In this document: positions 9,062-60,856 of the stretch, one piece after another | Position numbering within the stretch: position 1 is the first letter of the stretch | Layout of the letters: every line of letters starts with the position of its first letter | Assembly: GCF_032854445.1 (NCBI RefSeq) | Contig: NC_088305.1 | Location: forward strand, 26,126,628-26,190,627 | DNA length: 64,000 nt | Direction of reading: 5' to 3' | Origin: Liolophura sinensis | Taxonomy: Eukaryota > Mollusca > Polyplacophora > Chitonida > Chitonidae | The notes under the pieces: model-generated | Told to the model about the DNA's origin: nothing | Seen by the model: only the letters and a program-made list of their open reading frames with translations | Database searches by the model: none | Made by a program: the position numbers and the translations under genes

Positions 9062-9226
9062 TTATCGTTCCACCGTACGTGGGAAGGTCTGGCGACAACC
9101 TGCGGATGGTCGAGGGTTTCCCCGGGGCTGTGCCTGGTTTCCACCCACCATAATGCTGGCCGCCGTCGTATAAGTGAAATATTCTTGAGTACTGCGTAAA
9201 ACACCAATCAAATAAATAAATAAATT
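9062..9226 (+). mobile_element. SINE family A (3' half)
   Basis: Starts CGTACGTGGGAAGGTCTGG, includes CATAATGCTGGCCGCCGTCG and ends AAACACCAATCAAATAAAT. The tRNA-like head is missing. Confidence 0.9.
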
Positions 9227-9514
9227 TTATCGTTCCAACTGACCAGTAACTGACATTTATCCAGGACAAAAAGTTTCTTCTTCCTTGTCGTCCGCTTTAT
9301 CCCTTGCAAACATATATCAATGTAGTCTCCAAAAAACAAACGCATAGTCTCCCGGCAAAAACTTCCACCCGTAACTATTCACACAGTGGACCCTTGGTAG
9401 GTGGAGTAATAGAGCTTATACACCATTACTACATGTTCCAAATTGTTTATACATAATTGGCACAATTCTGACGCCGTGGTTATTATGAATTACAAGTTAG
9501 GTATGTGTAACTTT

Positions 9515-33365: not shown

Positions 33366-33994
33366 CAATAAATGTATTAAAATGTAGCCACGGGATGTGT
33401 CCGGGAGCGGTATGATGCGTAATGTCTTCGGTTTGTATTTGAGTGAGTCAGCACTACCAACGTGGAAGATTTGCTACCGTTATGTTAGCTTGGTAGACAT
33501 GGAGATCATGTCACGTATATGATTCACATGTTGGTCAGTCTTTTCAATTAATATGCTATATTACGCGCCAATATTTGGTTTAATTCGTTTACTATACCAA
33601 ACAATTTTTCTGTACCAGCATGGGCGGCTATCAAACCTCCTTGAATAAAACCGTTCATCCGGAGCACACTATGCAAATTTAGAGGTTCATTTTCATTATC
33701 TTCTCAAAATAGGTTTTCGTGGTACTCACTCTTACCTGTCAATGCAAAAAAAAAACGCAAAATTTTAAACACGAGATCGATTGAATTTTAATTCGGAAAG
33801 CAGTCTGCTTATGTTGTAGACTGTAGTTTGTTCAGCAGTAATTTTAAATGTGAAAGGCGTCGCTTCTTCTGCTATTGTGCTCAAAGTATTAATGCCACGA
33901 AAACCCATGAGGTGATGCTACTACGAGTGATCATAGGTTTCTTCGTTTCCAAGCGCTTATTTTAAATGGCTTTTTTTGTTTCTCCACACACCAG
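33366..33994. other. Upstream flank or intron of the SLC23-like gene
   Basis: AT-rich; no first exon of the transporter could be recognised. Confidence 0.4.
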
Positions 33995-34152
33995 CATTAC
34001 CTGACAGCCTTTGGCCGTAAACTGCTTATACTGTTATCACTGGCACCCTATTTCTGCATCGGGGATGACTACCTGGGAACCAGTCAACTCATCTCTATCA
34101 TATTCTTCGTCTGTGGCATCATCACATTGCTGCAAAGAACATTTGGAATCAA
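33995..34152 (+). pseudogene. SLC23-like transporter, exon with first TM segments
   Basis: Acceptor CCACACACCAG| then HYLTAFGRKLLILLSLAPYF, ending SQLISIIFFVCGIITLLQRTFGIK. This follows the early region of SLC23 nucleobase-ascorbate transporters (QHYLT.F, then SQLI.TIF...GI.TL.Q...GI). SLC23 proteins are 12-14 TM sodium-dependent ascorbate or proton/sodium nucleobase carriers of the plasma membrane. The exon itself is open. It is scored as part of a pseudogene because downstream exons are broken and the exon for the QGA...GPI.I.PT region is not found between 34.15 and 35.2 kb. Confidence 0.62.
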
Positions 34153-34399
34153 GTGTCTCTTACAAACAGCAACAACGGAACAAAACCCCGATACGCTCTA
34201 AGGCAAATAAAAATAGGCACTGAAGCATTCTTTTTTTTGCGTCTAAATTTTTATCAAATGTCTTCTCGTCTTTAAAAAAAAAGCACATGGTACATGTGGG
34301 TTTTGCCACAGCAACATAATATTAACAATATATTCTGTCTGACGATGAAACTGAAGTGTGCTCTACTTATTTGCAGGAATATATATGCGTTCTTCGTAT

Positions 34400-34775
34400 C
34401 ATATCAGACCGCTAATGCTTAGAGTGTCCGCCTCGTGGTCGGGAGGCCCGTGATCAAACTTGGGTCGGGTCATACCAAACACTTCAAAAATGGAACTTCT
34501 TGGAGCCTCGCTTGACGCTCAGCACCGAGAGGTTGGAGCAAGGGAACAGGACTGGTTGGACCCGTGTCAGAATAAAGTAACTAGGTGGGTTGTCCTGTGT
34601 CTTCCGCATGATACTTCAGTGGCGGCAGCGCTTGAGCGGCATAGACTCATCCTCCCACTAGAAGACACATTATTTGTACACACACCTAATGACTCTTCGT
34701 CACTATATGACTGACAAATTGTTAAGTACGACGTTAAACCCCAAACATTCATTCATTCATTCATTCATTCATACA
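34400..34775 (+). mobile_element. Family C SINE-like element
   Basis: tRNA-like start (GTGTCCGCCTCGTGGTCGGG, GTGATCAAACTTGG), a body with CTTCCGCATGATACTTCAGT, a 3' module TTAAGTACGACGTTAAACCCC and a (CATT)n tail. An 84-codon frame inside is not a gene. Confidence 0.75.
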
Positions 34776-35219
34776 ATATTAGACACTGATTTAAGTCTGC
34801 GCGGATCTGACATCTTTGAAATAGGGTCTATACAAAAAACTAAAACCCATTCAATATTCGTAGGTGTTATCATTTAACAAGGCAGTCAGAATCAGCGCCA
34901 GATGGATTCACACCGCTGAAGTAATTGGTCAAGAGTCGATTAACAGCGACCAAAGCAATGTTTTAATGGAATAGGCCAAATTTTGAAAATCAGTAATATT
35001 TGTAATTTAGTCTTTGTGTTGTTGGCTGATGTCGTCGATTGTTCATCATACCGGGAACGTCGTTGGCTTACCGGACTCCGCCCATTGCCATAATGGGCCT
35101 TCCTGAATAGTAAGTCGTTTGTGTATACCATTATGTATAGGGTAACATGTACACACCAAACTGCATACAGAAATTTAATTTTTGATTCAGCTCAAATTTT
35201 TGATTCAGATTCAGTTCAG

Positions 35220-35340
35220 CTTAGTTGCGTTTATCGTGCTGTTTTCCCAGTATCTGTACCAAATGAAGCTCCCATTACAGGTTTATGTTAAAGGATCAAG
35301 CTGGAAACTTCGCCATTTTACACCCTTCAGACTGATTCCT
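35220..35340 (+). pseudogene. SLC23-like transporter, VLFSQYL exon
   Basis: After the acceptor-like TTCAGATTCAGTTCAG|, the exon reads LVAFIVLFSQYLYQMKLPLQ, then VYVKGSSWKLRHFTPFRLIP, with donor CCT|GTAAGTG. SLC23 proteins have the same V.FSQYL...PVPVY...F...P block between TM segments. Phase 0 exit matches the next exon. Confidence 0.62.
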
Positions 35341-35375
35341 GTAAGTGTTCTCATCTATTTAAAGACACTACAGAT

Positions 35376-35500
35376 GTTTGTGGGTTTCCTCTGGGTTCTG
35401 CCCAGTTTCCTCCCACCATAACGTTCGCCACCGTCGTTTAAGTGAAATACGGTCTTCTAGACTACGGCGTAAAATACCAATCTAAAAAATAAATCAAATA
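35376..35500 (+). mobile_element. SINE family A (3' half)
   Basis: GTTTCCTCCCACCATAACG, GTCGTTTAAGTGAAATACG and GTAAAATACCAATCTAAAAAAT. Confidence 0.85.
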
Positions 35501-35865
35501 ATTCTAGCATATTAAGTACATAAATGTGATGGATAGTATTGTTTTGTTTTTTTCTGGGTTTTTTTTCGGGGGTTTCTATAGCTACTACAAGCAGCTCCAT
35601 AAAAGGCTTTGTCAGCTTGCTGATCTATCGGTCGGTTAGTCCGTCAGTCCGTCAAAATTTTGACATTCTGTTTTTAACACGGACATTTCTCCTAATAAAA
35701 ATTCGGCGTATTCTGCCATGCCACAGCCATTGTGAATCCCCGCTTGTTCTGTATACAATTAACTTCAGCAGATCCACAAAGTGGCTGCCATTTTAATAGA
35801 AGAAAACAACCGAGTGTTTAGGTTTAGCAAAATGGTATATATACATCTCAGTTCCGCTTTGGTTG

Positions 35866-36006
35866 TGCTGGCTTCCTCTCCGGCCGTACGGTCGTGGGTT
35901 TCCACCGGCCTCTGCCCGGTTTCCTCCTATTATAATGCTAGTTGCCTTCGTATAAGTGAAATACTTTTGAGAAGGGCGTAAAACACCAATCAGATAAATA
36001 AAATAA
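35866..36006 (+). mobile_element. SINE family A, internally deleted
   Basis: GCTGGCTTCCTCTCCGGCCG joins directly to GGTCGTGGGTTTCCACC, so the middle is deleted; ends AACACCAATCAGATAAAT. Confidence 0.88.
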
Positions 36007-36155
36007 ATTCCGCTTTGGTTGTAGCAGCTCATATATGAAACACAATTATAAGAGATTAATCACAAGAGGGCTGTAGCTCATTGTCAAAGTTAACAAACTT
36101 TCTTGTATCACTCCTCATATCTCTTACCCATATTTGAGTCATTTTTATTACAAAG

Positions 36156-36307
36156 GTGAAACTTGGCATTTGCCTGTCCTGGCTGGTCTGCTCCTGACTG
36201 TCGCCGGAACCTTGACCTCTGATCTATAGGCTGAGGTTACCAAGCCAGGACCGACTAGGAGATTGTGGCCCTGAACAGCGCCCTCTGGTTCTGGTTCGCA
36301 TATCGAG
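36156..36307 (+). pseudogene. SLC23-like transporter, broken exon with stop and frameshifts
   Basis: Acceptor ATTACAAAG|, 152 nt, donor CGAG|GTACTT. Pieces in successive frames match the family: VKLGICLSWLVC, then LTVAGTLTSD, then YQARTD, a TAG codon, EIVALNSALWFWFAYRG. SLC23 members have W..C..LT....L...(H)..RTD......WF..PYPGQWG here. At least two frame changes and the TAG after RTD show this copy cannot encode a full transporter. Its last base completes the Gly codon of the next exon. Confidence 0.6.
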
Positions 36308-36691
36308 GTACTTCTCAGTAACGAATAACGGTATCATCGATCCTGTAACAATTGCTGTTGTATACCCCTAGCAGCTGTCCATCTTTTGCAATCCACATCA
36401 GCTGCAATGTTTACTTACTGCATATTTTTACTTGCTACACAGGTATTTCTCAAGGCTTTCCTTCTACATTTGTTTAACTTGGGATTGTTGATTTTTGATC
36501 ATTATTCAGTATATCGCCAAAGGTCGGGTATTTTACTTCGTGCGCCATATTTAACAGAATAATCTGCTTCAATAACAGAATTCACGTAACGTCACTGAGG
36601 GCAACAGACTTTCTGTTATATTAACAGATTACCATTTTGAGGGTTCGTTTTAAACAAGTAAGTAAATAGATAACTTTATGGCATATTTTAG

Positions 36692-36814
36692 GACAATGGG
36701 ACTTTCCCACTATAAATGTTGCTGTATTTTCTATGTTGGCTGGCGTTATGACCTCCATGGTGGAATCAGTCGGAAATTACTACGCATGCGCACTGTGTCA
36801 CGCTGTCAACAGAG
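36692..36814 (+). pseudogene. SLC23-like transporter, core ESVGNYYACA exon
   Basis: Acceptor GCATATTTTAG|, 123 nt, donor AGAG|GTGACT. It reads QWDFPTINVAVFSMLAGVM then TSMVESVGNYYACALCHAVNR. This is the most conserved SLC23 region (QWG.PT......GM.AG......ESVGDYYA.A......HA.NRG), containing the substrate-site Glu. The exon is intact, with Asn for the usual Asp of GDYYA. It is the strongest evidence for the family call. Confidence 0.75.
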
Positions 36815-37194
36815 GTGACTAACACATGAAAGCATTTGGAAGCAAGACTAATCGGAAAAGTTTGCCACAATTCTTCCCATGTAAAATGATATGTTGATTG
36901 ACTAGTCAGTACTACGTATGCCTGCTTTATGGTTCATTAAATCTTCAACATGTCCTCTCCTTTCGTTTCTTCAGCATGTCTGAGAAATGTAGCACTTGCA
37001 GACGAAAAAGTGAGCGGAGAAGCTGCAAAACAATTTGTCATTAACTTCTCTTCATACTCTTAAATCGTTATTTCTTTGTTTCTGTTTCTTTTTGTTTTCA
37101 TAGGAGACGAGAAAGTAGTGTGGACCCCAACTGATTTTGTCCCCACGCTCTTTAAATTCCATGGCCTAGAATATCTTTGGTAAATTCACAGTAT

Positions 37195-37850
37195 CACATT
37201 ATCACAGTATCACACATACATAGCTGACAGATATCCAGGGCATTGTACAGCACATTCATAGTCATTCATATTCACAAATCAGCAGTAAATATCACACATA
37301 CGTAGTTCACAAATCAGCGGTACATATCACACACGCATACTTCATAAATCGGCGGCACAGTAACAAACACACAAAGCTCACAAATCAGTTTTACACATCA
37401 CACATACGTAGTTCACAAATCAGCAGCACATTTCACACATACACAGTTCACGAATCAGCAGTACATATCACACATACACAGTTCACGAATCAGCAGTACA
37501 TATCACACATACGGAGTTCACAAATCATCAGTACATATCACACATACATAGTTCACAAATCAGCGGTACATATGACACACACATACTTCACAAATCGGCG
37601 GCACAGTAAAAACACACATAGCTCACAAATCAGTTTTACACATCACACATACATATCTCACAAATCAGCGGTACATATCACACACACATACTTCACAAAT
37701 CGGCAGCACAGTAAAAACACACATAGCTCACAAATCAGTTTTACACATCACACATACATATCTCACAAATCAGCGGTACATATCGCTCTTACATCCACAA
37801 ATCAACAGCACAGTAACAAACATATATAGCTCACAAGCATTCGTGGTACT
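37195..37850. repeat. 35-bp minisatellite with 105-bp higher-order units
   Basis: Variants of CACAAATCAGCAGTACATAT plus CACACATACATAGTT. From about 37570 the three-unit 105-bp block repeats almost exactly, with CACAAATCAGTTTTACACAT in each. It lies in an intron of the SLC23-like gene. Confidence 0.9.
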
Positions 37851-38293
37851 GTACCATACAACACCACATGCAAATTGCAAAGTTATGTACACGGTACAGT
37901 AGCACACATAAAACTAACGGATATCTGTGGATCAGTACCTCACTCATAATTCACACATATAACAATTATAACATAATGAACACAAAGTGTTGTGTTTAAA
38001 TGGACATTTTTACGTATGCCAACATATATAAATACTTACTAATTCACTGCAAGGTTTAAGAAATGTTACCTTACCTTTGTACAATATTGTTTTCTTGAGC
38101 AATGTATACCTTTAATGAATATACAATGATCACTCAAAACAAAAGGTCCAAAAAAAATTAAAATTTATGACCTCGTGATTTGTAGGTAAGCAAGTTTCAA
38201 AATTGTTTCACTTCGTGAAATAAATGTCTATGGGTTTCATTCTATAACAGTGCGGAAGAGTACATGTATGTCTCGACTTTCCGATTCCTCTAG
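37851..38293. other. Intron of the SLC23-like gene
   Basis: AT-rich, no further exon seen. Confidence 0.4.
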
Positions 38294-38352
38294 GAATTGG
38301 TATACAGGGCATGTGCTGTATTTTAACCTGTGCCTGGGGAAGTGGTACCGGT
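38294..38352 (+). pseudogene. SLC23-like transporter, left part of the interrupted exon
   Basis: Acceptor TTCCTCTAG| then, completing the Gly codon from 36814, GIGIQGMCCILTCAWGSGTG. The family has NRGI..EG..C.L.G..G.GNGTTSYSENIG. The coding text GCCTGGGGAAGTGGTACC is the same as the unit of the 22-bp minisatellite that begins here. The exon's right half resumes at 42676, about 4.3 kb away. Confidence 0.65.
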
Positions 38353-38457
38353 TACTTGGGAAAGCGGTACACGATGCCTAGGGAAGAGGTACCCGATGCC
38401 TGGGGGAGCGGTACCAGGTGCCTGGGGAAGCGGTACCCGATACTTGGGGAAGCGTTA
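38333..38457. repeat. 22-bp minisatellite, left block
   Basis: Units GCCTGGGGAAGCGGTACCMG plus RT, six or so copies running from exon sequence to the transposon end at 38457. The right block is at 42122-42675. Before the insertion they formed one array. Confidence 0.92.
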
Positions 38458-38725
38458 GTCTGCGCACAAAAAGAACGCTTGCTCGCGATAAAAGCGAGCG
38501 CGATAAAGCAAGCACTTGTAATGTTGTTCAGAATTTGCTTGTGCCGCACAAAAAGCACGCTAGCTTTATCGCGCCTGCGATGTCAAGCGACGCTTGGAAA
38601 GCGTAAAGAATCAAAAGTTAATTCTTTATCGCGAGCAAGCGTGTTTTTGGTGCCCCCCACGTGTGTTGTCTAGTCACGATTTGGCAAGTGCAGTGTGTGT
38701 TTTCTCCTCTGACAGTCCGACCAAA

Positions 38726-38838
38726 ATGGATGTGGAGTCTTTGATATCAGCCGTGTTTCAAAAGAAGGAAAGACCACGCAAACCGCAACGTTGTGAATCG
38801 TGCTTGGAAAGAAATTAGGGAAGAGCTGAAACATGATG
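38726..38838 (+). pseudogene. Harbinger MADF-domain protein, exon 1
   Basis: ATG 38726 in AAAATGG context begins MDVESLISAVFQKKE. The frame then shifts to read KDHANRNVVNRAWKEIREEL before donor GATG|GTAAGA. MADF domains have this LI..V......(H)..RN.V..AW..I. layout, so bases were lost or gained near 38770, where the usual LWD segment is missing. It joins in phase to 40263 (G|AA gives Glu). Confidence 0.62.
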
Positions 38839-39199
38839 GTAAGAATAACTTTATTGTATGTATTTATTCATGGCTGCTTTCATTTATTTGTGCTCCATTG
38901 CCTTCTATTCTGTAGTAAAAGTCCCCCCCCCCTCTCTCTCCCCCTATCTCTCTCTCTCTCCTCTCTCTCTCTCTCCTCTCCCTTTTTTCCTTTCATGCCC
39001 AATATCTTTCTCATTATTTCCTTGGACCCTCTCGCTCTAGCCAACTCTACTACAAGCTTATTGTAATTTACTAACAAAAGAAAATCGAAGACAGATCTAC
39101 TTTTATATTTACAAGAGCAGCGTCTGGTCAGTTTACAAAAGCTTTTAATGGACTTTGGCCCAGATTGTTCCTTGAAGGTTACATTTTCTTGTTGATAGG

Positions 39200-40069
39200 C
39201 TATTGAATATATTGCAGAGGATATCTACTGAAGTATGCTTTAAAAACATCCCTAACAGTTTTTGAATCATTACATGGCCTCCCAACACGGTCCCAAACTA
39301 TGCCTTGGTTTTCAATCGAAACTTCGGTGAGGTTTTGCACCATGCCTTCTTTGTCTATTATAGTGTTATGCAGGACACAAACACATTTTACAATGCGATC
39401 GGCAAGCAGCACGTCTGTCTCAATTTCTTTGTTTAGCAAACGCCATTTTGCTACCAAAATTCCAAACGCACATTCCACGGTTTTTCTACATCTTGACGAT
39501 CTCTTGTTGAAGCAGTCTTCATCAAGAGGGAGATTTGTTCCACTGTAGGGTTTCAAAACATTAGTGTCATTAGTGGGTATGTCTCGTCAGCAATGAACAC
39601 AAATGGGGCCACGACATTGGAGTTTGGCAGGGCTGTAGGCTGTGGTATATGCAGTTTGTCTTGTACAAGAGCACGATAAAGGCCAGAGGCTTGAAAAGTA
39701 CCTCCATCGCTTTGTTTCCCGTGTCCGCAAAGGTTGATTTTCAGAAATTTGTAATGAGCATCAACAACAGCCTGCAACACTATTGAGAAATATCTTTTGT
39801 AGTTATAAAACATGGATCCTGATTTGCTGGGACAACGGATTCGAACATGCTTTCCGTCTATCGCTCCTAAGCAGTTTGGGAAATTCCAAAGATTGTAAAA
39901 GTCATCAGAAGCCGATAGGAATGTTTCCCTGGTTGGAGAGGGCATATGCACTGGTTTCAGCTCATCCCATATAGCAGTAACAGTTTCAGACACAACGTGT
40001 GCTACAGTGGAGGCACCCACCCGGAAGTTGAAGGCAAGGGTCTTAAAAGATGAACCGGTTGCAAGAAAT
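39200..40069 (-). pseudogene. Harbinger transposase (HARBI1-like DDE nuclease), exon 2
   Basis: Acceptor CTTTTTTCAG| at 40070, then RFLATGSSFKTLAFNFRVG completing the split Arg codon, the classic PIF/Harbinger TLRFLATG junction. The DDE parts follow: NCLGAIDGKHVRI (first Asp), CGHGKQSDGGTFQASGLYRAL (second Asp), ADETYPL, then RCRKTVECAFGILVAKWRLL (Glu). After ETYPLMTLMF the frame stops. One more T in the T4 run at 39555-39558 would restore F-L-KPYSGTNLPL, so a single-base deletion breaks the gene. Stop at 39200. Confidence 0.85.
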
Positions 40070-40262
40070 CTGAAAAAAGACGTTCATCATATTAGTTGTG
40101 TCTCTGAAAGCGGCTTTTGAATTGTGATATATATATATTTGACTTGCTGGAATGGGGCAATCATTATGACTCAGTTTATGTGAACTTTCATCATTGACAA
40201 TAATATTGTATGCAAGCACTATATCATAAATAATAATGTGCTGTTAATTTTTTTGTTTTCAG

Positions 40263-41047
40263 AAACTGCACTGAAGAACAAATGGAAGTCCCTGCGAGAC
40301 TGCTTTGCGACAGAATACAATAAAAGGTCTGTGCCAAGATCAGGAGACGCTGCAAGCAATCGCCCACAATCAAAGTGGCAGTTTTTCAATCAGCTTCTCT
40401 TTTTGAAAAATATTGTTGCGCCGAGAACTTCATTCGACTACCTATGTCTGGATAACTTTGAAGGTAATCAACCAAGCCCGGGGATTGCGGATGAGTCTGC
40501 AACAGAAGTAGACACCCAGGGCAGCAATGTGGAAAGTCAGGGACCGGACACATTTGACAATCCTACAGCCTTTGAAGCACCAGAGCCTGGGCCGTTCCAG
40601 GAGTTTTCTCCGGGGCCTCCGTCGAGTAAACGTACAAACACAAGAGCAGGACCCCCCAAAAAACGCAGTCGAGACAGCTCGGACAGTTACAGGGAACTGA
40701 TAGATGTAGAAGAAAGAAAACTTCAATACTTAAGTCAAAAAAGAGAAAATGCCGAGCAAACAAATGATGCTGACTTCCAATTCCTCAAATCATTATACCC
40801 ATACATGAAAATGGTCCCTGAGCACCTGAAACTCTGCGTTCGCAATCGAATACAGTCAGTTCTGCAAGAGTTTGTATACCCACCAACAGTACAACAACGT
40901 TCACAAAGCCAACCTCAAGATCTGGATGTACAATTGCGAGATAGCACATCGCCCGCATTGTCTTACCAAAGCTATAGCACAGGTTCAACACCTAATAGCA
41001 TTGATTCCTACACCACTCAGCCAGACTCTCATCATTTCCAGTACTAA
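40263..41047 (+). CDS. Harbinger MADF/BESS protein, exon 2
   Basis: Acceptor TTTGTTTTCAG| then ETALKNKWKSLRDCFATEYN and SKWQFFNQLLFLKNIV, the second half of a MADF (Myb/SANT-like) domain. A Pro/Ser-rich linker holds a basic PPKKRSRDSS patch (probable nuclear signal), followed by a coiled stretch and DADFQFLKSLYPYMKMVPEH, a BESS motif used for protein contacts. In Harbinger elements the Myb-like protein binds the transposon ends and brings the nuclease to the nucleus. The exon is open for 262 codons. It lies entirely inside the intron of the opposite-strand transposase. Confidence 0.8.
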
Positions 41048-41668
41048 TTGTTTTCATTATGATGGTTAAGACATCTGTCAACGCCTGAACAAAAGATATT
41101 AAGCAGCGTTTTTGTTAATATGTTGTAATCTTTATGTTGTTTTATTTTTTCAGCTGTTATCATTTCCAGGTACATTCATTTAAAGTGCTGAAGACAAAGA
41201 GTCATCAAATGATCCTTAATTTTGTTGTACTCAAATTGTATTTTACACAAGATACTTAATATGCCAGTTAGGCGTAAATGATTTTGTTTTCTCTCGCAAG
41301 TGGAAAATCATTCTTATTCTTTACGAACAGTGATCTTTTTTAAACATCTATGTTGTTGATTTTATATAATCACTCTATAACTAAGATAGTTTCTGAGTTT
41401 GTTGGCTGTTTTCTCTGTTTGTTTATTGTCTTTTGTGAGTAACAACCTTTTTAATCCTACTCTTCTCTCCTAAAATGTCCTCACCATAAGTTTAAAACAA
41501 ACAAGAGATTTACCTGTTGTAGTTCATAATGGAGATCAATAAACTTTATGATACACGTTTACACAGTCTTAGTTCATTGTGTATGCATGAATATATATTT
41601 ACAGTTATTACTTCATACTTATATATATAACTGTATATACACATACGTTTCAACTAAGGGTGACTCAC
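41048..41668. other. Transposase intron, no further gene
   Basis: AT-rich sequence between the MADF/BESS stop and the donor of transposase exon 1; no coding signal. Confidence 0.6.
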
Positions 41669-41971
41669 CTGAGCGTAATAACTAGACGCTCCTCTGGCAG
41701 AATTGGTTGTTGGTGCCAGTTGCACCAGTTCTTTGTTATCTTTGGTTCAATTTTTTCTAAGATATACTTGAATGTCTCTTGGCTGATTCTCAAGTATGAC
41801 TGGAAACGAGAAGGGCTCCTTTTAAGCAAAGGAAACAAGTGATGATATTCACCTTCCATTCACCTCCTTTTATTTATCTCATGAACGCCCATTTTTTTTG
41901 CGTTTTCCTAGGATAATTTTCGGCAAAACACTGTCTAGCAGCAATAGTTCGTCTTCACTTGAATCCGCCAT
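41669..41971 (-). pseudogene. Harbinger transposase, exon 1 (N-terminal, disrupted)
   Basis: ATG 41971 begins MADSSEDELLLLDSVLPKII, a typical acidic transposase start. At an A8 run (41892-41899) the frame slips; with seven A it would continue VHEINKRR. A TGA then interrupts before MEGEYHHLFPLLKRSPSRFQ, which matches the conserved GEYHHL block. The exon ends ERLVITLR with donor CTCAG|GTGAGT, giving the Harbinger ERL..TLR|FLATG junction. With the exon 2 frameshift this makes three lesions. Confidence 0.78.
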
Positions 41972-42121
41972 GGTGCCAAATGACAAAATTCTACCAGTCG
42001 CAAGCGCGATTTACAATCTGTCAATATGTCCACCTCAACGACAAGCAAGCGCTTTCATTTCACGTGCTTGCTTTATCGCGCTCGTTTTTATCGCGAGCAA
42101 GCGTTCTTTTTGTGCGCAGAC

Positions 42122-42675
42122 TAACGCGGTGACTGGGGAAGCAGTACCCATTACCTGGGGAAGCGTTACCCGGTGCCTGAGGAAGCGGTACCAGGTGCCT
42201 GGGGAAGCGGTACCCATTACCTGGGGAAGCTGTAACCTATGCCTGGGGAAGAGGTACCCGATGCCTGGGGAAGCGGTACCAGGTGCCTGGGGAAGCGGTA
42301 CTCGTTACTTGGGGAAGCAGTACCCATTACCTGGGGAAGCGGTACCCGTTACCTTGGGAAGCGGTACCCGATGCCTGGGGAAGCGGTACCCGATGCCTGG
42401 GGAAGAGGTACCAGGTGCCTGCGGAAGCACTACCCGGTACCTGGGGAAGCGTTACGCGGTGACTGGTGAAGCAGTACCAGGTTCCTGAGGAAGCGGTACC
42501 AGATCCCTGGGGAAGCGGTACCCGTTACTTGGGGAAGCGTTACGCGGTGACTGGGGAAGCGGTACCCATTGCCTGGGGAAGCGTTACCCGCTGCCTGGGG
42601 AAGCTGTTCCGTACCCGTTACTTGGGGAAGCGTTACGCGGTGACTGGGGAAGCACTACCCAGTGCCTGGGGAAGC
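42122..42675. repeat. 22-bp minisatellite, right block
   Basis: About 25 units of GCCTGGGGAAGCGGTACC-type sequence with variants GTTACGCGGTGACTGGGG. Because 22 is not a multiple of 3, each frame cycles through all three translations every 66 bp, explaining the long but meaningless ORFs. It ends exactly where SLC23 coding text resumes (GGGGAAGCGGGATTGGAAC). Confidence 0.93.
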
Positions 42676-42727
42676 GGGATTGGAACATCATCATACACGA
42701 AAACATCGGGGTATCGGGATTACCAAG
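42676..42727 (+). pseudogene. SLC23-like transporter, right part of the interrupted exon
   Basis: GIGTSSYT, a one-base frame slip, then ENIGVSGLP and donor CCAAG|GTTTGT. Together with 38294-38352 this rebuilds the family motif G.GNGTTSYSENIG..G.TKV. Phase 2 exit matches the next exon. Confidence 0.68.
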
Positions 42728-43189
42728 GTTTGTGTGAATAACGACTTACTTGTTAGGCAAGCGGTATACACTATCTTTTGTTCGCACTGCTCAATTCACA
42801 GCACCCTCTCGTTCTGCTGCGATCTGCCCTCAGGTACCAGACAAACTGCGGTGATATTCGCAATTTTCCCCATGAACATTTTACAACATTTAACGTGAAC
42901 TATAAACCACCGTCTTATAATTGCATGGTATAAATGGTATTCTGTTATTATAACACAGTATTGTGTAATATTCAACATAATATCCTGTCCGTATACAAGA
43001 ATAGTCATGCTGTGTTAAAAGAATATGTGTGTTATATTTATCAGAATAATCCTCTGCAAAAACAGGATACATTCATACATTCATACATACATCACAGACT
43101 TTCTGTTAAATATAACTGATTATTTTTCAATAGTGATTTTCATCACCAACCTATCAGTAAATCGATCAATACATCCTTCAAGTGGCCAG
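42728..43189. other. Intron of the SLC23-like gene
   Basis: No repeat or exon recognised. Confidence 0.4.
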
Positions 43190-43317
43190 TCGACGTGTGA
43201 TACAGACATGTGAGCTGCTGTTGATCGTTCTAGGCTGTCTGGGAAAGTTAGGGGCCCTGTTTTGTCACCGTAGCTACCCCCAATAATTGGTGGTCTATTC
43301 ATGGTCTTGTTTGGTCA
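43190..43317 (+). pseudogene. SLC23-like transporter, RRVIQ...GKLGALF exon
   Basis: Acceptor AAGTGGCCAG| then SRRVIQTCELLLIVLGCLGK and LGALF, followed by two frame changes through VTVATP to PIIGGLFMVLFGQ. Family pattern: (G)SRRVIQ.......G..GK..A.F...P.P..GG. The splice entry is intact but the frame is not. Confidence 0.65.
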
Positions 43318-43621
43318 GTGACTTTATTATTAGCTTACATCATTCAAAATCTTATTGACTTATTTTTCATCTACCCACTGTCGTATTTAAACTTTCATGC
43401 TGTGTTTTAGAATACAGTAAGCATTAACTGATTGAAGTTCAGTGTTAACTAAGTTGTGTCTGGGTGCTTCGGGGCGACCCTAATGTAGGTGTAGATGTAG
43501 TGTAGGTCAGGTTTGTGGCTCGTCATTTATGGGGTCAAAACTGGACAATGTTGGGGGACGGCATCAAACTGACGCAACCCACATAACTGTATGGGGAAAG
43601 GGGCTCTCGTTGTCTCATTTA

Positions 43622-43795
43622 CTGGTTTATTTATTTGATTGGTATTTACGCCGTACGCATGAATATTTTACTTATACGTTGTCGGCCAGCATTATGATGA
43701 GAGGAAACTGGGCAGAGCCCGAGGGAAACCCACGACCATCCGCATTGGTGAGAGACTGCTGAGTCATTGCGACGCAATGGGGCCTACCTGGTGTA
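43622..43795 (-). mobile_element. SINE family A
   Basis: TTGATTGGTATTTACGCCG, GGCCAGCATTATGATGAGAGG and the head remnant ATTGGTGAGAGACTGCTGAG. Confidence 0.9.
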
Positions 43796-43817
43796 GCCTG
43801 GCAGTCATCTTATAAGT

Positions 43818-43948
43818 AAACATCTGGCTTCCTCTCCGGTTGCACATAGGAAGGTCTTTCAGCAACTTGCGAATGGTCATGTGTTTCGGGTCGGACGGCT
43901 GTAATGATGGCCCACATCATATAAGTGAAATATTCTTGAGTTTGACCA
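43818..43948 (+). mobile_element. SINE family A, facing the previous copy
   Basis: TGGCTTCCTCTCCGGTTGC, AATGATGGCCCACATCATAT and AATATTCTTGAGTTTG. Head-to-head with 43622-43795. Confidence 0.8.
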
Positions 43949-44851
43949 CGTGCACTCGAAGTTATCTCCCTTTATAAGTCAGTCATACGCTGATATATAT
44001 TGACGGGCGTGAAACACCGTTGGCAAGAAACCACGAAACAGCAATAAAAACCATTTGTTTATCGACTGTTATCGCACCTGCTCGCACTAAACACACATCT
44101 TTCTTAATCTCAGTGCATTAAACAGCTCGAATTCCGCGTGAATATCACCTTAGAAGGAAATGTCCAAAGTCTGTCAACTCCATCGTTTATCCCGACGCTC
44201 AGCCATCCATAGCCTCTTTGGCCCTCCTTCGGGTGCTGACGGAGATTCACGAACCGGTGTACATGCGCGTCATACTTGACACAGATATCATCCAGTTTTT
44301 AACCAGCGTATTACAAATCCAAAGCAGATGACACCAAATGTTTATTAATTTATCAGTTGAAAAATAAGGAGGTATAATTTTTCTTAATCTATACATAGGC
44401 ACAATTTAAAAGTTAGAATTGATATACCCATATCATATTTCAACTGCATTTTCATGTCAGCTTACATGAATTGTAGTGCATATAAATTGTTGAAAGTCTG
44501 AAGACAGAAGACAAAAAGAAGAAATAATTGACTGGTTTAAATTCCCACAGGTGTATGTACTCATACTTAATACATCCACAGTTCAGTTAATTATCAGCTA
44601 GAATTGTGTATCCATTTTTGTAGTGTCCCATTTCTACATAGAGAAAACTAAATATAAAAAATGTCTCTATGACAAATGATTTTAAACATTTCCTTCAAAA
44701 GTGATATTAACGAGGAATTCGAGCCGTTTAAAGGACTGGGATTAGGAGAGATGTGTGCCTAGTGTGAGCAGGTGTCATAACAACCGAGAAACAAAGGTTT
44801 TTTATTGCCGTTTCGTGATTTTTTGCCAAAGGTGTTTCGCGCCTGTCCATA
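43949..44851. other. No gene recognised
   Basis: AT-rich spacer before the Tc1 element; no SLC23 exon found here. Confidence 0.45.
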
Positions 44852-46338
44852 TAAACTAACGGCCAAAAGAAACTTCAAGACTCCGTGAGTTAAATTTAAC
44901 CAGCCTTTTCAGCAAATTAATACCAAATTATTGTAGGAAAACAGTGTACGAGGCATATTCCCATGTGCGACAAGCGTCATATATGCCCACACGGAGACAA
45001 CAAAGATAGTTGAAAAATCATGTGACCCATGGATGGCAACTGCACATGTAATAAGTGTCTAAAAACGTTACACACAGTGTGCTGGACTTGGACACTGACT
45101 AAAAACTACCAAAGTAATGCCTCGATTGACTCCAGAACACCGCGAGAGGGCCCTGGGTATGGTATCTATGGGAGCCACCCATGCCCACATTGCATGGACC
45201 TACGGCTGCTCTCGTGTCAAACTTGATGCAAGGTTACAGGCAGACAGGGCAGACATCGGACAGGCCAAGAACAGACAGGCCTAGTATAACTACGCCCAGA
45301 GAAGTTGGGTACCTGTGCACCTTACATCTGAGGAACCGCTTCCTGACAGTGACGCCATCGTCAATCAACACCTAAGGTCACCGGGTGAGTCGGCAGACCG
45401 TGTCCAGGAGCCCATAGCTCACGGAATTAGAGCCTATCTACCATTCAGAGGGCAGTTGTTGACAGTCGAACATCGTCGCCAGAGGTTGCGCTGGGCTCGA
45501 ATTGTACGCCGTTGGCGGCGACGTGATTGGCGTCTTGTTTACACGGATGAAAGCCGCTTCTCCCTGTTCCGAGCCGATGGCAGACAGCGAGTTTAGCGTC
45601 GAAGAGGTAAACGAACGGCTGCATCATGCGTCCAGGAGGTGGCACCATTTGGTGGCGGCAGCGTGATGGTGTGGGGTGGGATTTGTGGAGAGGAACGGAC
45701 ACCACCGGTCATCATTTACGGGAACCTAACAGCTCAACGTTACGTGGATGAAATTCTACGTCCTTGTTTCCTGCCATTCCTTCAACAGCAGCCACGTCAT
45801 GTCCTGTACCAGCATGGCAACGCCATACCTCAGTTCTGCAGAACTTCCTGGACTCTAACGACGTCAGCGTCTTGCCGTGGTCTGCACGTTCCCCAGATAT
45901 GTCCCCACAGAACACCTTTGGGACATCATGGGTCGTCGAGTAAGACAACGGCCACACCTTGCAGCCAACCGACAAGAACTCACGTCATCTCATCAGACGA
46001 ATGCCTTTTTCTATGCGTCAGAGAGTTTTTGTATGCATTGAAGCAAGGGGTGGCCACAAGCGATGTTGATCGGTTTTGATATTGACTGATTTTAAAAATA
46101 ATCAACATTTGGTACTCTGCCCGTTGTTAACTAAGAGGCAATGGCTATTTTTCAACCCCTGCAATGTTTGTTCACTTGTAAAATGATTTGAGGGCTGCTT
46201 TGTCCATTCTTACTCAAGACTTTCAAATTCTAAAGTCATTAGTCTTTTCAATATATTAAACTTCAATCACCCTGTTTTTGGTTTGGCAAAATAAATTGAT
46301 TTGAACTCTTTGTAAAGTTTCTTTTGGTTGTCAGTTTA
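44852..46338 (+). mobile_element. Tc1/mariner-type DNA transposon (decayed)
   Basis: Inverted ends TAAACTAACGGCCAAAAGAA (44852 on) and TAAACTGACAACCAAAAGAA (from 46338, minus strand), 23 of the first 26 bases alike, flanked by TA on both sides as Tc1 elements require. Length 1487 bp. Carries one transposase relic. Confidence 0.88.
45117..46079 (+). pseudogene. Tc1-like transposase, multiple lesions
   Basis: ATG 45117 starts MPRLTPEHRERALGMVSMGA, a helix-turn-helix region. A TAG follows after 55 codons and the frame changes repeatedly. Conserved blocks are recognisable: RQRLRWARIVRRWRRRDW, YTDESRFSLFRADGRQRV (first catalytic Asp), FGGGSVMVWGGICG, GNLTAQRYVDEILRP, then VLYQHGNAIPQ where active relatives have QDNA.PH (second Asp replaced by Gly), and EHLWDIMGRRVRQRPH in another frame. 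Clearly inactive. Confidence 0.88.
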
Positions 46339-47060
46339 TATAAATTAGTGTTTGACAGACGAATAAAGGGAGATAACTTCGAGTGCCTATTGTATGGCGT
46401 AAAACTCTAATAAAACAAGTAAATTATAAGTGAACAAATGTTGACTAAAGCTTTAATCTTCTCGTCCTCGGATCGTCAGTATTCTTTGGAATAAGTCTGT
46501 CTTCCTGGATGCAAAGTAACCCTGGTGTCAACCAAACCCGTCAGTGTTTCCTTTTGTTGTCATTTAGGAAACAAATATAAAATTCTGCTGAACAAAACTA
46601 ACAAAGCGAAGTCCGGTTTCTTTAAAGACGCTGTGCAGAAGAGTTCTAGTAAAAATGAATCAGCAGTGAATTCTTGCTATTATTTTAGAATAGCCCATAT
46701 AGTTACTTTTCGCAAATTATCATCCTGGTCTGTGCACGTGCTACCTTTCAAAATCGGCAATACAGTTCCAGAAATTCATAAAGTCGCTACCACGATAATA
46801 TCTAAAACCTTAGAATCATTTTGACATAATAAATAACACAGGTAGGAGTTTGAGTGTTTACTGAAATGCAATGATTTGAGCAATATCCTTGGTAAATACA
46901 GAATTTTTTTACCCAAAAATCTCCGGTAGATAGCCCCTTTAATCATTTTTGTCTATCGTAGCTACCGATTTGCAACAGATGTGAACACAGGATCACGTAA
47001 AAAGGTATACGATGACAGTGCTCTATGTTCTAAATTTTTATTCGGGTATTTCCTCCTCAG
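46339..47060. other. No firm gene
   Basis: A 99-codon plus frame (46525-46824) has no recognised motif. Just upstream of the next exon, ACAGATGTGAACACAGG near 46974 may be a decayed piece of the SLC23 (P).(A)(V/I).TG block. Confidence 0.35.
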
Positions 47061-47156
47061 GTAGTCACATTGCTGATCAGATTCTTAAATTGTTATGTAT
47101 CACCAGTATGTTTGTCGGGGGCTTTTGCAACTTTGTCTTGGATAACACGGTTCCAG
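47061..47156 (+). pseudogene. SLC23-like transporter, MFVGGF...LDNTVPG exon
   Basis: Acceptor TTTCCTCCTCAG|, 96 nt reading SHIADQILKLLCITSMFVGG and FCNFVLDNTVPG. SLC23 proteins have (A..)DQIL.VLL...MFVGG...F.LDNT(V/I)PG near the C-terminal TM segments. The donor side is CCAG|GCGTGAG: a GC rather than GT donor, or a mutated site. It is either the 3' continuation of the broken copy or a separate partial copy. Confidence 0.68.
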
Positions 47157-48311
47157 GCGTGAGATGGAATTCATTCCGTTTTTTTTATTTATTTACTGTA
47201 ACTACTTCCTTAAAATACTGAACAAGACATGTTTGAGTATTTCCGTTCCAGTGCAATTGTGTGCTTACACCTAAACGGATACCCTGGGAATAGGAAAGAA
47301 GGGTATTGTTTTTAACAATCTACATTCAGCTTGACATGATTAGATGTTGTTTTCCTCGATAAATACAGGCACAGAAGAAGAATCGTAGAATTTTGAAAAG
47401 GTGCGAGATGATCAACGCATGAAATCCTCGCCTTTTATGTGGGACACGTTTGGTTTCCCCTTCATTCAGATGTCCTCATAGGTGGCGTTGGACAAGCTAT
47501 ATCCCATTCTGTTCCGGATTTAAAGGTCTTGAGAGATGTTCTACTGCCAAACGCCATTAAGGATGCAGATTTTTATTAAAATTTTTATTTATTAATTTTA
47601 TTGAAATCTCGAGCTATCACGCTTTGTAGGTCATGTGACATTAACAGCATGAACAAGAATTCGTCGATCTCATGAGTTTTAAACATCCACCGTCTTATTA
47701 TGGTCATTGTTTGTTTTTTTCCATCCCATTATGTTGCACTAATTTTCGTGTAATTTGCTACCATAATAAACATTTACATGAACAGTTAGAATAAAACACT
47801 AAGTGAGGAAAACTAACAAGAGGCCGTATTTCACCGGATATGTGAGACTATTTACCAATTATCACCACTGTTGTGATGTACAATGGTGTACATCTTTAAG
47901 TATGTGCATGTGTGGATGGTGTGTTAAAACTCGTGAAAGGGAAAGCTGGCCAGATGCAGGACAAACTGCCACTTTATTGAAGAGATGCCTAATCAAGGCT
48001 ATATCTGGAGTATCCATTTCTGACATGTATTTACTCTCATAGAACGCATGCGCTAAAATGTCTACATGTTCTACCAGATAAAATGATACACGCATTTAAT
48101 AAAATCTGTAAATATTGTAAGAAAAATTAAACCAAAATCAAAAAGCAACGTGAAAACTTATTTGCACATGTATGGTCTTCTTATTTTTTTTCGATTTTTT
48201 CTGTGTGGAGGAAAGGGTATTTGAGTTTATTTGTAGATATACGATTCGTATTTATGAGAAGACAGTAACATTCCAAAAGTCCAATTCCTCAGATTTATAT
48301 ACTGTGAAAAA
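47157..48311. other. No gene recognised
   Basis: AT-rich; short frames only (for example 47803-48042), without splice or domain support. Confidence 0.45.
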
Positions 48312-49588: not shown

Positions 49589-50404
49589 TTTCAAATACTA
49601 GTACTCCAAATGTTGCCAATGTGAGAAAAGAGTGACGTCATCAATGCTCTTAGGGTACAAAATTGAACAGCAAAATAGAGTTTGTACTAAGGTGAACTGG
49701 TGGGTCTAATTTGTGGCATTCTGATTGCGAACATTTTGGATATCTCGAGGCCTGGTTATGTAAATGTGACAGAAATTGTATAATCTACCACCAGACTTAC
49801 ACAGATTGTATGTAAGCTTAAATCAATTCAGATTTACTTTTCCGCATAATTAATCATAGATCAAGTCACTCAGTGTACCCATGTCGTGACCTATAAAGAG
49901 TACAACCGATTGGCTAAAACATCCATCGTGACGGTGTTAAACTCAAACTTCATGTAACACTGTCATGAAAGATCAACCCCGTATTATTTTAGCTATGCAA
50001 ATAATGCGGCTCAGCCAGCACGATAAAGCATTCGTTGATGCTAACTGTGATGTACCGTTGTTGTTTTTTTTTTATATATATTATTTGTTTGAAATGACAC
50101 CGCGCGAATCTTGGAAAAGAATCGGTAGTTATTACATTACTATAGTCTATTCCTTTTAGAGAGTCGCCTACATTCAGCTGTCTGTAAAATTAATCATCCT
50201 CGTCACCACAATTGCCTTTAGTCAGTGGCACTTTACAACATGAGCTCTACGCATTGATATGTGGAACGTCCATATCATTGCAAGGACAATAAAGTTAGAA
50301 CACTGTTTCTAATTCATGATGTTAAAGTCCATATGCTAGGTTTCGACGGCAAAAACCCATTTCCTCAAGTGACGTCATAATTATATAAAAACCAAATAAT
50401 ACAG
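49589..50404. other. No gene recognised
   Basis: A 64-codon plus frame at 49965-50159 is unidentified. Confidence 0.4.
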
Positions 50405-50486
50405 ATTTGTGTTTTACTGATGATCGTACTGGGCTGTCTTGGCAAGTTCGGGGCTTTGTTCGCTACTATTCCTATACCAATAATGG
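50405..50486 (+). pseudogene. SLC23-like transporter (second partial copy), LGKFGALF exon
   Basis: Reads ICVLLMIVLGCLGKFGALFA then TIPIPIMG with donor ATGG|GTGAGT. Homologous to 43190-43317 but without frameshifts (GKFGALFATIPIPI against GKLGALF-broken). The 5' edge is degenerate: the SRRVIQ codons are replaced by AACCAAATAATACAG. Open in itself, but no transporter N-terminus is present for this copy. Confidence 0.62.
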
Positions 50487-50829
50487 GTGAGTGTTCGTCA
50501 TTATGTTTGGACATTCGACGGTTTTGTTGGATTTCTGAAATATTTAAATCAGTCTCAGTTGGCTTCAATTTAATTTATTATGTTCTTAGATTAACCATCT
50601 TCAATCTTTTGTATAACAGCACGTTGGTGGCATGGACCAATGTATACATACATAAATACCATAAGATCGAGTCATTGGCAGTCAGTGATATGGCTAACTT
50701 GATATTTTGTGTCAGAAAATTTTACCAAATTTAACGACAGAAGAGTATCGAATTCAGCCAAAGAACGAAATTAGGATTAAATGACATAAAAAGCTCATCC
50801 AAAATGTGATACGAAACTTCTCTTAATTG

Positions 50830-50874
50830 ACGTATCAGCATGGATGGTAGAGAAGCAGAGTGCTGTCCATACGG
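50830..50874 (+). pseudogene. SLC23-like transporter (second copy), small exon remnant
   Basis: VSAWMVEKQSAVHTG ending at donor ACGG|GTGAGT corresponds to the family's P.W(M/L)......(A)(I/V).TG segment just before DQIL. The upstream half of the exon (GLSNLQF..LNS.RN) is not readable; frames there contain stops. Its last base completes the Gly codon of 51567. Confidence 0.48.
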
Positions 50875-51566
50875 GTGAGTTCAACATGCCTAAAGAGGCT
50901 ATAACGGAGCACTTCGGTAAACAAAGTCCATATTATTGAAATCAATGTTTGCCGTTTATCAAACATAGCTCAAATTATTGTTTTTAAAAAAGATCGGACA
51001 TGCATCTATACTATTTGTGGTATTAAAATGATCCTAAAACTTAAAAACATTATAAAGCGGCCAGTATTACTATAAATTTTACGAAACTTTATTACAGATT
51101 TTGAACGGGAATACATGCATTCATTTGACGAGTATCGTGTGCAGGCAATTATTTGAGCTTTTCTAAATTAATAGTAAAAATTTGATCGAATTTTTGTTCA
51201 TGGATTTTTAGCCAAAAATCACCTGTAATGTCTCTTCAACCCGCCCCATGTTTGTAAACCGTCTGGCTGGAAAACAACCATCAACAAAAATTCTCTTGAC
51301 ATTAACATCCCCAAAGCTTAAAGTAAAAGGAAAACAAAACCTGAAAAATATGTCACTGGAGAAAACAGTGAAAACATTGTCCACAATGAATTATTACATG
51401 TATTTTAAGATTTTAGGTTTTTTACGGAACAAACGATAGGCTGATGGAGCGTTTTGCTTTGAATGACGCAACAGTAGCGTTTTCATCCTATTTAAATCGT
51501 TCATAAAAATCAAAAAATGTTAAGTAAACTTTTCACACCTGACCTGTTCCCACTCTTACCTTTCAG

Positions 51567-51656
51567 GAAGTGACATCGCAGACCAAATTTTAACAGTGGC
51601 ACTGGAATTTTTGTTGGCGGGGTTTTCTGGGTTTGTCCTGGATAACACTACTCCAG
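51567..51656 (+). pseudogene. SLC23-like transporter (second copy), LDNTTPG exon
   Basis: Acceptor TTACCTTTCAG|, 90 nt, donor CCAG|GTTAGA. Reads SDIADQILTVALEFLLAGFS then GFVLDNTTPG. Paralogue of 47061-47156, two codons shorter around the MFVGG motif. Splice sites are good and the frame open, but the following C-terminal exons are not found before 55 kb. Confidence 0.66.
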
Positions 51657-51689
51657 GTTAGATGAAACGAAATTATGGCGGCAATCATT

Positions 51690-56559: not shown

Positions 56560-59500
56560 AAAATTTATCAACATGAATACCATAAAAGATTACAGCTAGA
56601 AGAGTGGAATTTATCATTATGAATGACATAATAGATTACAGCTAGAAGAGTGGAATTTATCAGTATAAATAACATAAAAGATCACAGCTAGAAGAGTGAA
56701 ATTTATCAGCATGAATAACATAATAGATTACAGCTAGAAGAGTGAAATTTATCAGCATCAATAACATAATAGATTACACCCAGAAGAGTGGAATTTACAG
56801 TGTGAATAACATAAAAGATTACAGCTAGGAGAGTGGAATTTATCAGCATGAATAACATAAAAGATTACAGCTAGAGGGGTGGAATTTATCAGTATGAATA
56901 ACATAAAAGATTACAGCTAGGAGAGTGGAATTTATCAGTATGAATACCATAAAAGATTACAGCTAGAGGAGTGGAATTTATCAGTATGAATACCATAAAA
57001 GATTACAGCTAGAAGAGTGGAATTTATCAGTATGAATACCATAAAAGATTACAGCTAGAGGAGTGGAATTTATCAGTATGAATACCATAAAAGATTACAG
57101 CTAGAAGAGTGGAATTTATCAGTATGAATACCATAAAAGATTACAGCTAGGAGAGTGGAATTTATCAGTATGAATACCATAAAAGATTACAGCTAGAAGA
57201 GTGGAATTTATCAGTATGAATACCATAAAAGATTACAGCTAGAAGACTGGAATTTATCAGTATGAATACCATAAAAGATTACAGCTAGGAGAGTGGAATT
57301 TATCAGTATGAATACCATAAAAGATTACAGCTAGAAGAGTGGAATTTATCAGTATGAATACAATAAAAGATTACAGCTAGAAGACTGGAATTTATCAGTA
57401 TGAATACCATAAAAGATTACAGCAAGAAGAGTGGAATTTATCATTATGAATACCATAAAAGATTACAGCTAGAAGAGTGGAATTTATCATTATGAATACC
57501 ATAAAAGATTACAGCTAGGAGAGTGGAATTTATCAGTATGAATACCATAAAAGATTACAGCTTGGAGAGTGGAATTTATCAGTATGAATACCATAAAAGA
57601 TTACAGCTAGAGGAGTGGAATTTATCAGTATGAATACCATAAAAGATTACAGCTAGGAGAGTGAAATTTATCAGTATGAATACCATAAAAGATTACAGCT
57701 AGGCGAGTGGAATTTATCAGTATGAATACCATAAAAGATTACAGCTAGAAGAGTGGAATTTATCAGTATGAATACCATAAAAGATTACAGCTAAAAGAGT
57801 GGAATTTATCAGTATGAATACCATAAAAGATTACAGCTAGGAGAGTGGAATTTATCAGTATGAATACCATAAAAGATTACAGCTAGAAGAGTGGAATTTA
57901 TCAGTATGAATAACATAATAGATCACAGCTAGGAGAGTGAAATTTATCACCATCAATAACATAATAGATTACACCCAGAAGAGTGGAATTTACAGTGTGA
58001 ATAACATAAAAGATTACGGCCAGACAAGTGGAATTTATCAGTATGAATACCATAAAAGATTACAGCTAGAAGAGTGGAATTTATCAGTATGAATACCATA
58101 AAAGATTACAGCTAGAAGACTGGAATTTATCAGTATGAATACCATAAAAGATTACAGCTAGAAGAGTGGAATTTATCAGTATGAATAACATAATAGATTA
58201 CACCCAGAAGAGTGGAATTTACAGTGTGAATAACATAAAAGATTACGGCCAGACAAGTGGAATTTATCAGTATGAATAACATAAAAGATTACAGCTAGAA
58301 GAGTGGAATTTATCAGTATGAATACCATAAAAGATTACAGCTAGGAGAGTGGAATTTATCAGTATGAATACCATAAAAGATTACAGCTAGGAGAGTGGAA
58401 TTTATCAGTATGAATACCATAAAAGATTACAGCTAGGAGAGTGGAATTTATCAGTATGAATACCATAAAAGATTACAGCTAGGAGAGTGGAATTTATCAG
58501 TATGAATACCATAAAAGATTACAGCTAGGAGAGTGGAATTTATCAGTATGAATACCATAAAAGATTACAGCTCGAAGAGTGGAATTTATCAGTATGAATA
58601 CCATAAAAGATTACAGCTAGGAGAGTGGAATTTATCAGTATGAATACCATAAAAGATTACAGCTAGGAGAGTGGAATTTATCAGTATGAATACCATAAAA
58701 GATTACAGCTAGAAGAGTGGAATTTATCAGTATGAATACCATAAAAGATTACAGCTAGGAGAGTGGAATTTATCAGTATGAATACCATAAAAGATTACAG
58801 CTAGGAGAGTGGAATTTATCAGTATGAATACCATAAAAGATTACAGCTAGGAGAGTGGAATTTATCAGTATGAATACCATAAAAGATTACAGCTAGGCGA
58901 GTGGAATTTATCAGTATGAATACCATAAAAGATTACACCTAGAGGAGTGGAATTTATCAGTATGAATAACATAACAAATTACAGCTAGGAGAGTGGAATT
59001 TATCATTATGAATACAATAAAAGATTACAGCTAGGAGAGTGGAATTTATCAGTATGAATAACATAAAAGATTACAGCTAGGAGAGTGGAATTTATCATTA
59101 TGAATACCATAAAAGATTACAGCTAGGAGAGTGGAATTTATCAGTATGAATACCATAAAAGATTACAGCTAGAGGAGTGGAATTTATCAGTATGAATAAC
59201 ATAACAAATTACAGCTAGGAGAGTGGAATTTATCATTATGAATACCATAAAAGATTACAGCTAGGAGAGTGGAATTTATCAGTATGAATAACATAAAAGA
59301 TTACAGCTAGGAGAGTGGAATTTATCATTATGAATACCATAAAAGATTACAGCTAGGCGAGTGGAATTTATCAGTATGAATACCATAAAAGATTACAGCT
59401 AGAGGAGTGGAATTTATCAGTATGAATAACATAACAAATTACAGCTAGGAGAGTGGAATTTATCATTATGAATACCATAAAAGATTACAGCTAGGAGAGT

Positions 59501-60510
59501 GGAATTTATCAGTATTAATAACATAAAAGATTACAGCTAGGAGAGTGGAATTTATCAGTATGAATAACATAAAAGATTACAGCTAGGAGAGTGGAATTTA
59601 TCAGTATGAATACCATAAAAGATTACAGCTAGGAGAGTGGGATTTATCAGTATGAATACCATAAAAGATTACAGCTAGAAGAGTGGGATTTATCAGTATG
59701 AATAACATAAAAGATTACAGCTAGAAGAGTGGAATTATCAGTATGAATAACATAATAGATCACAGCTAGAGGAGTGGAATTTATCAGTATGAATACCATA
59801 AAAGATTACAGCTAGAAGAGTGGAATTTATCAGTATGAACAACACAAAAGATTACAGCTAGAAGAGTGGAATTTACCAGCATGAATAACATAAAAGATCA
59901 CAGCTAGGAGAGTGGGATTTATCAGTATGAATAACATAAAAGATTACAGCCAGAAGAGTGGAATTTATCAGTATGAACAACACAAAAGATTACAGCCAGA
60001 AGAGTGGAATTTATCAGTATGAACAACACAAAAGATTACAGCCAGAAGAGTGGAATTTATCAGTATGAATACCATAAAAGATTACAGCTCGAAGAGTGGG
60101 ATTTATCAGTATGAATAACATAAAAGATTACAGCTAGTAGACTGGAATTTATCAGTTTGAATAACATAAAAGATAACAGCTTGAAGAGTGGAATTTAACA
60201 GTATGAATAACATAAAAGATTACAGCCAGAAGAGTGGAATTTATCAGTATGAACAACACAAAAGATTACAGCAAGAAGAGTGGAATTTATCAGTATGAAC
60301 AACACAAAAGATTACAGCCAGAAGAGTGGAATTTATCAGTATGAATACCATAAAAGATTACAGCTCGAAGAGTGGGATTTATCAGTATGAATAACATAAA
60401 AGATTACAGCTAGAAGACTGGAATTTATCAGTTTGAATAACATAAAAGATAACAGCTTGAAGAGTGGAATTTAACAGTATGAATAACATAAAAGATTACA
60501 GCTAGAAGAG
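56560..60510. repeat. 46-bp satellite array, about 85 copies
   Basis: Units of ATAAAAGATTACAGCTAGAA then GAGTGGAATTTATCAGTATGAATACC repeat head to tail for about 3.95 kb. Variants (AATAACATAAT, ACACCCAGAAG, AACAACACA) cluster, so neighbouring blocks were copied together. The array lies wholly in one intron of the dehydrogenase gene. Confidence 0.97.
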
Positions 60511-60856
60511 TGAAATCAGCCCGGCCACCACAATGTGATACTTCGCAAATACTTCTATGGTCATGTAACATTCCAATAAAAAATTCTCTGATTATAGAAA
60601 ATTTACGGCAAATAAATGATTAAAAGACCCCTTTCTCCCTATTCCTCAACCATTTAATTATTCCTGAAAAAACGATGTAGGCCCGGCTATAAACTGCATG
60701 CACAGCTATTTAAGCTTCGTATCACTTTATTTCCATATACTGATCAAAGTATTCCAACAAATATCTGTTATATCTAATTTAATATACTAATGTATTGTTT
60801 GACAGGGGGCAAACCAGTCTCTGATCAATATGGGAGCATGGCAAAAGTTTTCTTAC

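Follow-up and report, generated by a model that had tools for sequence, protein, structure and literature searches.

An exon of a decayed SLC23-family gene as the probable seed of a 22-bp minisatellite that is divided by a PIF/Harbinger element

Results

A decayed SLC23-family gene

The analyzed stretch of DNA (hereafter the window) comprises 64 kb of contig 11 in a genome of 609 Mb. It contains the remnants of an SLC23-family gene, one exon of which is divided by a tandem array and a transposon (Table 1).

Table 1. Coordinates of the SLC23-family remnants, the 22-bp array, and the PIF/Harbinger element in the window.
Feature	Position	Strand	Remarks
Decayed SLC23-family gene	33992..47542	+	tblastn with human SLC23A1 and paralog exon peptides; stops, frame changes
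Split exon, left half	38294..38346	+	ends in AWGSG codons
22-bp array, left part	38331..38457	+	element cuts into the last unit, behind TTA
Left flank of element, TTA	38455..38457	+	
PIF/Harbinger element	38458..42121	.	3,664 bp; 66-nt terminal inverted repeats, 3 mismatches
Harbinger transposase region	39203..40083	-	DDE_Tnp_4 profile, two reading frames
Second Harbinger gene	40184..41041	+	MADF and BESS domains
Right flank of element, TAA	42122..42124	+	probably a second TTA with one substitution
22-bp array, right part	42125..42662	+	unit at 42592 has a 5-nt insertion
Split exon, right half	42663..42727	+	one T, then GCCTGGGGAAGCGG (AWGSG); GT donor at end
Second, partial SLC23 remnant	50393..51658	+	matches residues 398-429 and 490-517

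The exon remnants of the larger gene match human SLC23A1 residues ~50-110, 218-308, 310-359, 359-393, and 393-437, and further remnants match residues 440-484, 489-517, and 555-575. They are colinear with SLC23A1, i.e., the gene order is kept. No open reading frame runs through all exons, as three-frame translations and alignments placed stops and frame changes in several of them. The exon for residues 257-308 holds two stops and frame changes, and the exon after it is 123 nt long, compared to 150 nt in paralogs. The exon following the split exon has 134 nt instead of 132 nt and changes frame, and the exon for residues 440-484 has two stops ahead of its conserved part. The exon of residues 155-214 gave no match at E up to 1 between positions 30000 and 56000, and that of residues 103-130 gave one too weak to count (E 0.031). 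Some exons, e.g., 47069-47158, still read through. As judged from these lesions in several exons, the SLC23 gene of the window is a decayed pseudogene.

A search for a recent duplicate of the pseudogene lacking the array returned only the pseudogene itself. In a second search (best 40 of 2599 candidates), only the pseudogene itself and a dispersed repeat at ~42937-43127 were returned. This repeat of ~190 nt (42937-43127) lies in the intron that follows the split exon and is 77-82% identical to 39 other places (best 40 of 2599 candidates), three of which have an adjoining opposite-strand match, as a palindromic MITE would give. Open frames are also present at 45099-46076, inside one of the introns of the pseudogene; we take them to resemble a broken Tc1-like transposase.

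Two halves of one exon

The left half of the split exon begins at 38294, directly after an AG acceptor (38292-38293), and the right half ends at 42727, directly before a GT donor (42728-42729). The left half translates as GIGIQGMCCILTCAWGSG. The right half reads GIGTSSYT, followed by a 1-nt frame change, ENIG, a second 1-nt deletion, and IGITK; it thus carries two 1-nt deletions in total. On its own, the left half matched human SLC23A1 weakly (E 0.47, tblastn), and its match to the exon of a paralog had an E value of 2.4e-06, with 1.5e-04 for the right half. The joined 36-residue peptide matched two distinct PDB sequences (E 0.012 and 0.013), both of SLC23A1, which was the only molecule matched by this peptide among solved structures. 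A Pfam search with the exon halves and the joined 36-residue peptide matched no family.

Paralogs were sought in the genome with the PF00860 (Xan_ur_permease) profile, which gave at least 56 matches with E values of 0.001 or lower (81 candidates scored, exons counted singly), all of those listed being outside the window. Ten paralog stretches picked from the PF00860 matches were fetched. A full-length match to the exon was present in 8 of these 10, and the exon is continuous in all 8; the remaining two stretches (L037 and L041) are the 3' continuations of L036 and L040. The six closest paralogs (L035, L036, L038, L039, L040, and L042) are all on contig 11, and the continuous exon is also carried by two more distant ones (L043 and L044). 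In the six close paralogs, the exon reads GIG-x-EG-x-GC-x-LAG-[AV]WG[ST]GNGTT, with [AV]WG[ST]G falling where the window exon splits. When the array and the element were left out, the window exon aligned to the paralogs with the two 1-nt deletions as its only internal gaps. The sequences that start at 38294 and end at 42727 are therefore the two halves of one SLC23 exon. The initial annotation had described this exon as readable on both sides of an interruption, and the exact coordinates, with splice sites at both ends, agree with that description; the SLC23 alignment likewise indicates adjacent residues of one exon, which the paralogs carry unbroken. A tree built from three exons did not single out one paralog as nearest to the pseudogene (support 0.44).

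In the L036 paralog stretch, a different 22-bp array (GCCATCGGGACATTTGTTCCTC, 4.5 copies, 9198-9297) was observed a few bases past the exon that follows the counterpart of the split exon.

The 22-bp array

The first unit of the array, at 38331-38352, consists of sequence that belongs to the exon itself. Once the element is removed, 665 nt lie between 38331, where this unit begins, and the last exon-derived unit at 42663, so the extra sequence amounts to 30 units of 22 nt plus the 5-nt insertion in one unit. Both the first and the last unit retain GCCTGGGGAAG(T/C)GG, i.e., the AWGSG codons of the exon. These codons thus stand at both edges of the array, where the exon requires a single set. For an unrelated array with the same base composition, the chance of an in-frame [AV]WG[ST]G at one given edge is ~1e-5, and a chance likeness of exon and unit was ruled out at this probability per edge.

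An exact 18-mer of the array occurs four times in the genome, always at this locus. Both matches (2/2) of a DNA search with the right array part were also at this locus; because this search passes over simple repeats and highly frequent words, its count of array matches is not complete. When up to two mismatches were allowed in a 20-mer of the array, 18 of the 19 places found were here, and the lone 20-mer elsewhere is on contig 6 and has two mismatches. A dispersed 22-bp satellite was ruled out, as the 18-mer, DNA, and 20-mer searches found the array at this locus only.

The units differ from each other by a mean of 20.7% (29 of the 30 units; the 27-nt unit was dropped). No clear higher-order periodicity was seen in the array, with mean unit differences of 0.173-0.217 at lags 1-12. 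The consensus of the 22-bp unit is open in all three forward frames.

Because the AWGSG codons stand in both outermost units and the array was found only here, the SLC23 exon most probably seeded the 22-bp array. The initial annotation had proposed a coding exon as the seed, with a unit made of the exon's AWGSGT codons. The codons kept at both edges, together with a unit that occurs only here (apart from the contig 6 20-mer), favor the exon origin, whereas the gene to which the exon belongs has decayed through stops and frame changes.

Tandem Repeats Finder (TRF) detected 17 arrays in the window (period 10-70, at least four copies), corresponding to 16 loci if the two parts of the split array are taken together; the arrays cover 14% of the sequence. 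The window also contains a minisatellite of 16.5 copies of a 35-bp unit, located in the intron that directly precedes the split exon (37263-37836), and a long array of 86 copies of a 46-bp unit (56562-60516).

The PIF/Harbinger element

The element lies within the array between a TTA and a TAA, as had been proposed. Its transposase region matched the DDE_Tnp_4 profile in two frames (E 6.5e-10 and 1.1e-10), and the second gene matched MADF (E 2.9e-07) and BESS (E 4.5e-06). The first 30 nt of the element, with two mismatches allowed, identified 25 ends in the genome, comprising the window copy, ten other two-ended copies, and three single ends. Matching TWA duplications flank 7 of the 10 other two-ended copies, and the flanks of the other 3 are mismatched. 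The TTA and TAA of the window copy are likewise a mismatched target duplication. Removal of the element together with the right TAA yields TACTTGGGGAAGCGTTACGCGG, which has the exact sequence of the units that start at 42526 and 42619.

The window element differs from the ten other copies by 1.2-2.9% substitutions over ~3.1 kb compared in each; these values were calculated by hand from mismatch counts and alignment lengths, with gaps not counted as changes. Two Harbinger ends on small contigs (L064 on contig C301 and L067 on contig C96) have an identical 25-nt flank, so that a single insertion was probably assembled twice.

Discussion

Proposed order of events

The features described above are best explained by a pseudogene, an array seeded by its exon, and a later Harbinger insertion into one unit of this array, an account that we hold with high confidence. 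According to this account, a duplicated SLC23-family gene would have decayed into an intron-bearing pseudogene, and a 22-nt stretch of the exon over the AWGSGTG codons would have been tandemly duplicated. The duplicated stretch would then have expanded to ~31 copies, presumably by slippage or unequal exchange. A PIF/Harbinger transposon would later have entered the TTA of one unit and divided the array; in an empty allele, this unit would read GAAGCGTTACGCGG. One substitution in the right copy of the target duplication would account for the present TAA. The order exon, tandem expansion, transposon, as given in the initial annotation, is supported because one unit is cleanly split and because the units differ by 20.7%, compared to 1.2-2.9% among the copies of the element. 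By this measure, the element appears to postdate the diversification of the array, with the reservation that divergence within an array is not a clock. We regard the process as neutral decay and infer no function.

Alternative explanations

The mismatched flanks could suggest that the element did not arrive by a simple insertion, and that recombination between two copies or a rearrangement of the array produced the TTA and TAA. Mismatched flanks also occur in 3 of the 10 other two-ended copies, which is in line with such events. However, joining the two flanks restores exactly one known unit, which is unexpected from a rearrangement between different places, and we consider this explanation unlikely. 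Because the split unit rejoins to a known unit, an ordinary insertion at TTA with a later substitution on the right side is the likeliest origin of the flanks. Another source of the array itself could be a pre-existing minisatellite that moved into the exon and whose edge codons match those of the exon by chance or conversion. The window is indeed rich in minisatellites, with its 17 arrays at 16 loci in 64 kb, but the 18-mer, DNA, and 20-mer searches found this array nowhere else in the genome, and both of its edge units carry the conserved family codons AWGSG (chance ~1e-5 per edge). Such a transfer is therefore extremely unlikely.

The unit length of 22 nt cannot be divided by 3, and adding one unit therefore puts the codons that follow out of frame. 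Growth by single units could have occurred only where the frame no longer mattered, unless the first duplication itself destroyed the frame. Alternatively, the array may have grown during translation in 66-nt steps of three units, in which case the exon would briefly have encoded a growing 22-residue repeat and the gene would have died later. In favor of this scenario, the 30 extra units add up to 660 nt, which can be divided by 3 (the 5-nt insertion comes on top), and long stretches of the array are open in forward frames. On the other hand, one unit count in three would be a multiple of 3 by chance, growth by one 22-nt unit at a time disrupts the frame, and the frame continuing from the left half now meets four stops within the array. 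The added loop would also fall in a conserved part of the transporter. We therefore regard growth during translation as very unlikely.

How unusual is the locus

The initial annotation had called such a layered record within one exon rare, which the base rates do not bear out. At the array rate of the window, 0.28 arrays are expected over ~1.1 kb of exon remnants, corresponding to a 24% chance of at least one. With the lower rate of the other loci compared (17 rows in 175 kb, a count that contains overlapping loci and repeated rows), the chance is 10%. Rarity is thus not supported, as the chance of an array in this much exon remnant is 10-24%. The landing of the element in an array is not improbable either, given that 14% of the sequence consists of arrays. 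Although the events at this locus can be read with unusual clarity, every one of them is an ordinary mutation.

To our knowledge, the seed sequence of many minisatellites is unknown. Here, the seed of the array is known from the paralogs and both edges are retained, and a transposon that is young by divergence marks a later time point. For these reasons, the locus is a neat natural example of how tandem arrays originate and drift. It leaves the view of every known system as it was. Word searches of open papers gave no description of this locus among the matches listed.

Comparison with known systems

The pseudogene keeps the exon order and the motif of human SLC23A1 (PDB 8jew) and of the paralogs in this genome, and differs from these transporters by its stops, frame changes, and shortened or missing exons.

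The element resembles PIF/Harbinger transposons, as described in PMC4482050 and PMC9710019, in its DDE transposase, the second gene with MADF, and the terminal inverted repeats. A TWA target duplication is published for this superfamily (PMC4482050) and is present in most copies of this element. In contrast, the target duplication of the window copy is mismatched, and its transposase was matched in two frames. The inverted ends are 66 nt long, compared to ~15 bp for the PIF elements in PMC9710019.

The closest comparison for the array is with human gene duplicates. According to De Grassi and Ciccarelli (2009, PMC2812944), minisatellite-length repeats vary within exons of recent human gene duplicates. 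In human segmental duplications, these variable exon repeats average four units of 30 bp, and most of them preserve the frame, whereas seven cases shift it (PMC2812944). Those cases and the locus described here have in common that a minisatellite grew within an exon of a duplicated gene. In contrast to the cases in PMC2812944, the present array is composed of ~31 units of 22 bp, lies in a pseudogene, and was later split by a transposon.
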